This document shows positions 33,574-34,273 of a stretch of DNA of 44,378 nucleotides, in pieces. Under the pieces are notes generated by a model. That model did not search any database. It was not told where the DNA came from and was given only the letters and a program-made list of their open reading frames with translations. Numbering within the stretch: position 1 is the first letter of the stretch; every line of letters begins with the position of its first letter. Made by a program: the position numbers and the translations under genes. This DNA is from Bacteriovoracaceae bacterium. Its GTDB lineage: Bacteria; Bdellovibrionota; Bacteriovoracia; Bacteriovoracales; Bacteriovoracaceae. The DNA lies in assembly GCA_017858255.1 (NCBI GenBank), contig JAFMBV010000022.1, forward strand, positions 1 to 44,378, in the 5' to 3' direction.

Positions 33574-34197
33574 TTAAGCGCGAAGATCAGCGATTCGATT
33601 AGAAACGTAACTTGCAACACCAATTTGACGAGCTCTTTTAATAGCAGTCGTCGCAAACCTTTGGTGCTTACGGCTAACGCCTGTAACACGAGCGGCTGAA
33701 ATTTTCCCGAATTCATTGATAAGCCAAGTAAAAGTCGCTGGATCTTTCCAGTTAGCTTTCAAGTTATTCGACTTAAAGTAACAAGACTTCTGACGAGCAA
33801 ACTTCTTAGGGTTATCATGGTCATCATCACCTTCTTTGTCAGTGACAGAACCTTTGTAGGTTTTTGAAAAAGGAGTTTTGTAAGCTTTAACAACAGCTTC
33901 ACGTTCTTCGTCTTCACCAAGAGCAATAAACATGTGGCGTAAGTGAAGATCATTAATCTTCAAACGACGAATTAGCTCTTTGTTGTTTGAAGAATTCGCT
34001 TTAAAGATGAAATAAACGAAATGGCCATTGCCAATTCCTTCAGTTGTTGGCTGCGCGAAGCTCATTTTGCCCCACTCATCTTCGATGAATACTTCACCGT
34101 CGTGAGCTTTAACAACTTCGTGAACCATTCCTTTGAGGGTCGCTACTTCTTGGTCAGTAGCTTCCGGTTTCGCCACTAGGGCTAACTCATAGATCAT
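33574..34197 (-). CDS. Fused 30S ribosomal proteins S6 and S18
   Basis: One uninterrupted frame of 207 residues encodes both proteins. Residues 1-97 are S6 (MIYELALVAKPEA, GNGHFVYFIFKA, KINDLHLRHMFIAL). About 36 charged residues follow (TPFSKTYKGSVTDKEGDDDH). Residues 134-207 are a full S18 (ARQKSCYFKSNNLKANW, LINEFGKISAARVTGVSRKHQR, AIKRARQIGVASYV). In other bacteria rpsF and rpsR are separate genes whose products bind as a heterodimer to the 30S platform, so a fusion is structurally reasonable. AGGAGG with a five-base spacer precedes ATG 34197; the longer frame to 34233 is not used. No separate rpsF or rpsR is in the window. Confidence 0.93.
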   Translation of the reverse strand: MIYELALVAKPEATDQEVATLKGMVHEVVKAHDGEVFIEDEWGKMSFAQPTTEGIGNGHFVYFIFKANSSNNKELIRRLKINDLHLRHMFIALGEDEEREAVVKAYKTPFSKTYKGSVTDKEGDDDHDNPKKFARQKSCYFKSNNLKANWKDPATFTWLINEFGKISAARVTGVSRKHQRFATTAIKRARQIGVASYVSNRIADLRA

Positions 34198-34211
34198 AAA
34201 AACCTCCTGGA

Positions 34212-34252
34212 CTAAACGGCTTGTAGGCACCATGCCAATAAGCGGGGTCTAG
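34212..34252 (-). promoter_or_regulatory. Candidate S6:S18-binding leader hairpin
   Basis: Read on the minus strand, CTAGAC pairs with GTTTAG, and inside it GCTT pairs with AAGC, capped by GGCA/TGCC. Unpaired C residues flank the inner stem, and a CCG lies on the 3' side. Many bacteria have a comparable leader with a CCG bulge upstream of rpsF, bound by the S6:S18 complex. The structure is read by eye and the match is suggestive only. Confidence 0.4.
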
Positions 34253-34273
34253 TGAATGTCAAAAATGGTCTGC

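Follow-up and report, generated by a model that had tools for sequence, protein, structure and literature searches.

In the ordered assembly of the 30S subunit, ribosomal proteins S6 and S18 form a textbook pair, and in E. coli the free ends of both are modified. In the same organism, the two proteins pair before they bind rRNA-S15, and the S6:S18 complex acts on a leader RNA, with a putative Shine-Dalgarno sequence in it, to repress rpsF (Babina et al., 2015, PMC4647458). Some bacterial S18 proteins bind zinc through a CxxC...CxxH motif, and human mitochondrial bS18m and bS6m are connected by a [2Fe-2S] bridge (PMC11791143). Here we describe a gene in which S6 and S18 are encoded as one polypeptide. 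As in the bS6:bS18 heterodimer of the 30S platform, both domains are complete by family models and the S6 fold is kept in the structural model, but they form one covalent chain, so that the S6 C-terminus and the S18 N-terminus are not free. The gene also resembles the fusion of a putative signalling protein to L9 (NCBIfam NF011110) in that a ribosomal protein is joined in frame to another protein; there, however, the second partner is not ribosomal, whereas our gene joins two ribosomal proteins that lie side by side in the ribosome. The mitochondrial pair is likewise held together by an extra link, which is a metal cluster in that case and a peptide in ours, where S18 lacks the CxxC ligands.

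The preliminary description of the window, a stretch of 44,378 nucleotides from a Bacteriovoracaceae bacterium, had placed this gene at 33574..34197. The open reading frame bears out these coordinates and lies on the minus strand (ATG at 34197-34195, coding sequence 33577-34197, stop codon at 33574-33576); the plus strand of the same interval carries stops throughout. As had been proposed, the 207-residue product contains a full-length S6 (residues 1-97, 33907..34197, minus strand) followed in the same frame by a full-length S18 (residues 134-207, 33577..33798, minus strand), and the ribosome-binding site is AGGAGG at 34208-34203 (34203..34208, minus strand), 5 nt before the ATG. By Pfam, the S6 part scores 58.9 bits at residues 3-91 (PF01250, cut-off 27) and the S18 part 54.5 bits at residues 144-193 (PF01084, cut-off 21). 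The S18 part also exceeds the threshold of its NCBIfam model (TIGR00165, 51 bits against 38.75), while the S6 part reaches 35 bits with TIGR00166, under that model's stricter equivalog cut-off of 42.9, and is thus a divergent S6. An AlphaFold model of the whole chain (pLDDT 84.5, pTM 0.80) shows the beta-alpha-beta-beta-alpha-beta arrangement of solved S6 structures, with TM-scores that reach 0.89 over the S6 target. A PDB sequence search returned no solved chain that spans both parts. S6 and S18 each occur once in the window's genome (4.08 Mb, 98% complete), within the fused gene, and the search for separate rpsF and rpsR genes elsewhere in this genome, suggested at the outset, found none.

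The S6-S18 fusion is present in most members of one Bdellovibrio-like family, and S6 and S18 are separate in all related families examined. We sampled 129 genomes of Bacteriovoracaceae and relatives, 119 of which gave a match, and found one full-length fused match in 110 of these; in three more (G014, G070 and G140), contig ends cut the gene in a manner that fits a fusion. Translation of 80 fused genes, which represent over 40 genera, gave proteins of 197-214 residues with no internal stop. Named records with the fusion comprise Bacteriovoracaceae, Halobacteriovoraceae and Halobacteriovorax MAGs, and a contig scan for the fused gene recovered close relatives only. In 93 genomes from 22 other families of the phylum, S6 and S18 were matched separately, with none spanning both among the matches listed, and the two genes were separate in the other-family genomes that we read directly. 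An apparent second fusion in G039 was rejected: two genes lie in one frame with a stop between them, and an equal open-frame length had been misleading. Flags for internal stops in G096, G146 and G147 proved to concern no stop between the two domains, and a second S6 in G107 (27% identity, outgroup-type leader) probably belongs to a contaminant contig.

We considered whether the gene is an assembly or sequencing artefact that joined two genes. Many of the genomes are MAGs and one relative has a stop in the linker, but the same frame is kept in 110 genomes from many projects, and the linker codons are constrained. This conservation refutes an artefact, to which we assign virtually no probability; the junction indel that the preliminary description had considered is likewise dismissed, as the uninterrupted fusion recurs across the family, including in near-gapless assemblies such as G136 (one contig) and G008 (two contigs). 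The relative with the linker stop (G032, locus L029) has a single in-frame TAA where its relatives usually have a Glu codon; its fused gene is otherwise intact, no S18 start codon follows the TAA, and this observation counts against the reading favoured below. The preliminary description knew of no described case. Our literature search, with most subscription papers outside its reach, found no report of the fusion, and no NCBIfam fusion model matches the chain, though such fusions may sit unremarked in protein databases. The fusion also goes unmentioned in a comparative genomic study of predatory Bdellovibrionota (PMC11656739).

The two domains are joined by residues 98-133 (33799..33906, minus strand), previously described as an acidic linker of about 36 residues. 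Its extent stands, but only about residues 119-129 (TDKEGDDDHDN) are acidic; residues 98-118 (EREAVVKAYKTPFSKTYKGSV) are conserved and carry charges of both signs. By model and alignment, the linker starts at the end of a short helix (96-105) and continues through a conserved YKTPFSKxYxGS into the acidic stretch, and across the fused proteins the acidic residues are followed by KDRRxFxRRKSC. Across seven genomes of the window's genus, S6 and the linker both had a dN/dS of 0.119, and S18 one of 0.077. Because the linker value equals that of S6, we conclude that the linker is translated in frame and constrained.

The fusion might be a precursor whose linker is cut by a cell protease, yielding ordinary S6 and S18 and a conventional mature ribosome. 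The middle of the linker is predicted to be disordered (pLDDT < 50 at residues 122-129) and its length varies, with the S18 Cys at positions 131-147 across the 80 fused proteins, both in favour of cleavage; yet we noticed no conserved cleavage-like motif, YKTPFSKxYxGS beside S6 is conserved, the linker is constrained like S6 (dN/dS 0.12), and a frame kept in 110 genomes would be needless if two proteins were wanted. We therefore regard cleavage as improbable. Even less probable, and in our judgment very unlikely, is that S18 is made alone by internal initiation in the linker in addition to the fusion: 69 of the 80 genes have an in-frame ATG, GTG or TTG somewhere after residue 85 and before the S18 Cys, but the positions of these codons are not conserved, only a few are preceded by so much as a weak Shine-Dalgarno sequence, and the window's gene has no in-frame start with one.

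Five genomes of the family are unfused (G007, G025, G031, G034 and G098), with the order S6, stop, short gap, S18. Their S18 has its own ATG, in most of the five with a Shine-Dalgarno-like sequence. The S6 of most of these genomes terminates near or soon after KNYKSPFS or its equivalent; their S18 has a long, often acidic N-terminal extension with, for example, (D)xDKDRRMFSRKKSC at its end. As these relatives hold what are presumably the donor pieces, the bridge is probably a short S6 tail plus the old N-terminal extension of S18, and its acidic half most likely derives from the latter. The earlier proposal that the S6 tail became the bridge thus holds in that a short tail contributes, but, judging from the S18 extension of the unfused relatives, not in that the tail is its main part.

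Fused and unfused S18 proteins also differ in their zinc site. CxxC...CxxH is present in all five unfused family members (L043, L044, L045, L046 and L094), whereas the CxxC pair is absent from all 80 fused proteins; the window's S18 has CYFK and VSRKHQ in place of the motif. Since unfused outgroups (L048 and L053) have lost the CxxC pair as well, the association between fusion and zinc-site loss is a correlation and not proof of a trade. Fused and unfused alike, none of the family genomes has a match above cut-off to RimI, the S18 acetylase, so that loss of this enzyme does not set the fused genomes apart.

Directly upstream of the gene lies a candidate rpsF leader RNA (34198..34255, minus strand), consisting of an ACTAGAC/GTTTAGT stem and a GCTT/AAGC hairpin followed by CCAGGAGG, and identified by alignment with fused, unfused and outgroup leaders. 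It resembles the described rpsF leader (Babina et al., 2015, PMC4647458) in having a hairpin immediately ahead of S6 with the Shine-Dalgarno sequence in or beside the structure; Rfam gave no relevant match. A stem of at least 4 bp can be drawn in 79 of the 80 fused leaders, and in 66 of the 80 a CUC, which can pair with the GAG of the Shine-Dalgarno sequence, precedes the hairpin; the usual order is CUC, hairpin, then CCAGGAGG. Outgroup leaders have CCUU (facing AAGG), the same GCUC...GGGC hairpin and then CCAAAAGG. Both strands have thus changed in concert in this family relative to other members of the phylum (CUC/GAG against CCUU/AAGG), which suggests that a putative outer-stem pairing has been kept. 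The window's genus departs from both in having the ACTAGAC/GTTTAGT stem instead, and two of its members (L007 and L009) alter one side with pairing intact. A recognisable leader motif is absent from the unfused G025, G031 and G098. Compared with the described leader, the effector here would be one protein rather than a complex of two.

Collectively, we consider it highly probable that this is a genuine, clade-wide fusion whose single chain acts as the usual S6-S18 heterodimer on the 30S platform and represses its own mRNA. The S6 gene would have lost its stop and joined in frame to the S18 gene directly after it, with the S18 N-terminal extension becoming most of the bridge. If it remains intact, the chain may fill the positions that S6 and S18 normally take on the platform, held together by a flexible linker in which the S6 C-terminus and the S18 N-terminus would meet and no longer be free. 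By analogy with E. coli, the fused chain may repress its own synthesis by binding the leader RNA across the ribosome-binding site of its gene. The fixed 1:1 synthesis ratio that had been expected follows directly from one polypeptide, and the tether would make S6-S18 pairing intramolecular. We find no support for the earlier suggestion that assembly order may change: because S6 and S18 of E. coli already pair before binding rRNA-S15 (PMC4647458), a known step would become intramolecular, and no reordering need follow. A further-reaching version, that the intact chain is stable in the mature 30S subunit and leaves the ribosome with one chain fewer, that the tether arose with the loss of the S18 zinc site as a peptide link in place of a metal-stabilised fold or interface, and that the chain is a single-protein autoregulator, is one that we put forward only tentatively and think rather less likely than its opposite. 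A tethered lineage with unfused close relatives offers a natural test of a permanently linked pair in ribosome assembly, and could reveal how much separate diffusion, free ends and a pairing equilibrium matter for assembly and autoregulation.

The history of the fusion may have involved one gain, one gain and one reversal, or two gains. A tree of RpoB by itself does not fix the branching at the base of the family. With RpoB and RpoC combined, the group of G025, G031 and G098 falls between two fused groups, and forcing all fused genomes together gives a borderline p-AU of 0.052, which leans against a single fused clade and toward two changes. The tree of S6 and S18, in turn, accepts one fused clade (p 0.83). 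As G025, G031 and G098 combine a zinc-form S18 with the lack of a leader motif, their operon may be ancestral or may have been replaced.

The S6 and S18 parts have neither ssb nor priB between them. Downstream on the same strand, the next gene in the run encodes a DUF2232 membrane protein (PF09991, 32510..33553), which separates the fused gene from rplI (TIGR00158, 31899..32513), and the replicative helicase gene dnaB follows (TIGR00665, 30431..31825). The L9 encoded by rplI has a charged C-terminal extension of about 55 residues past the usual domain, rich in Lys and Glu.
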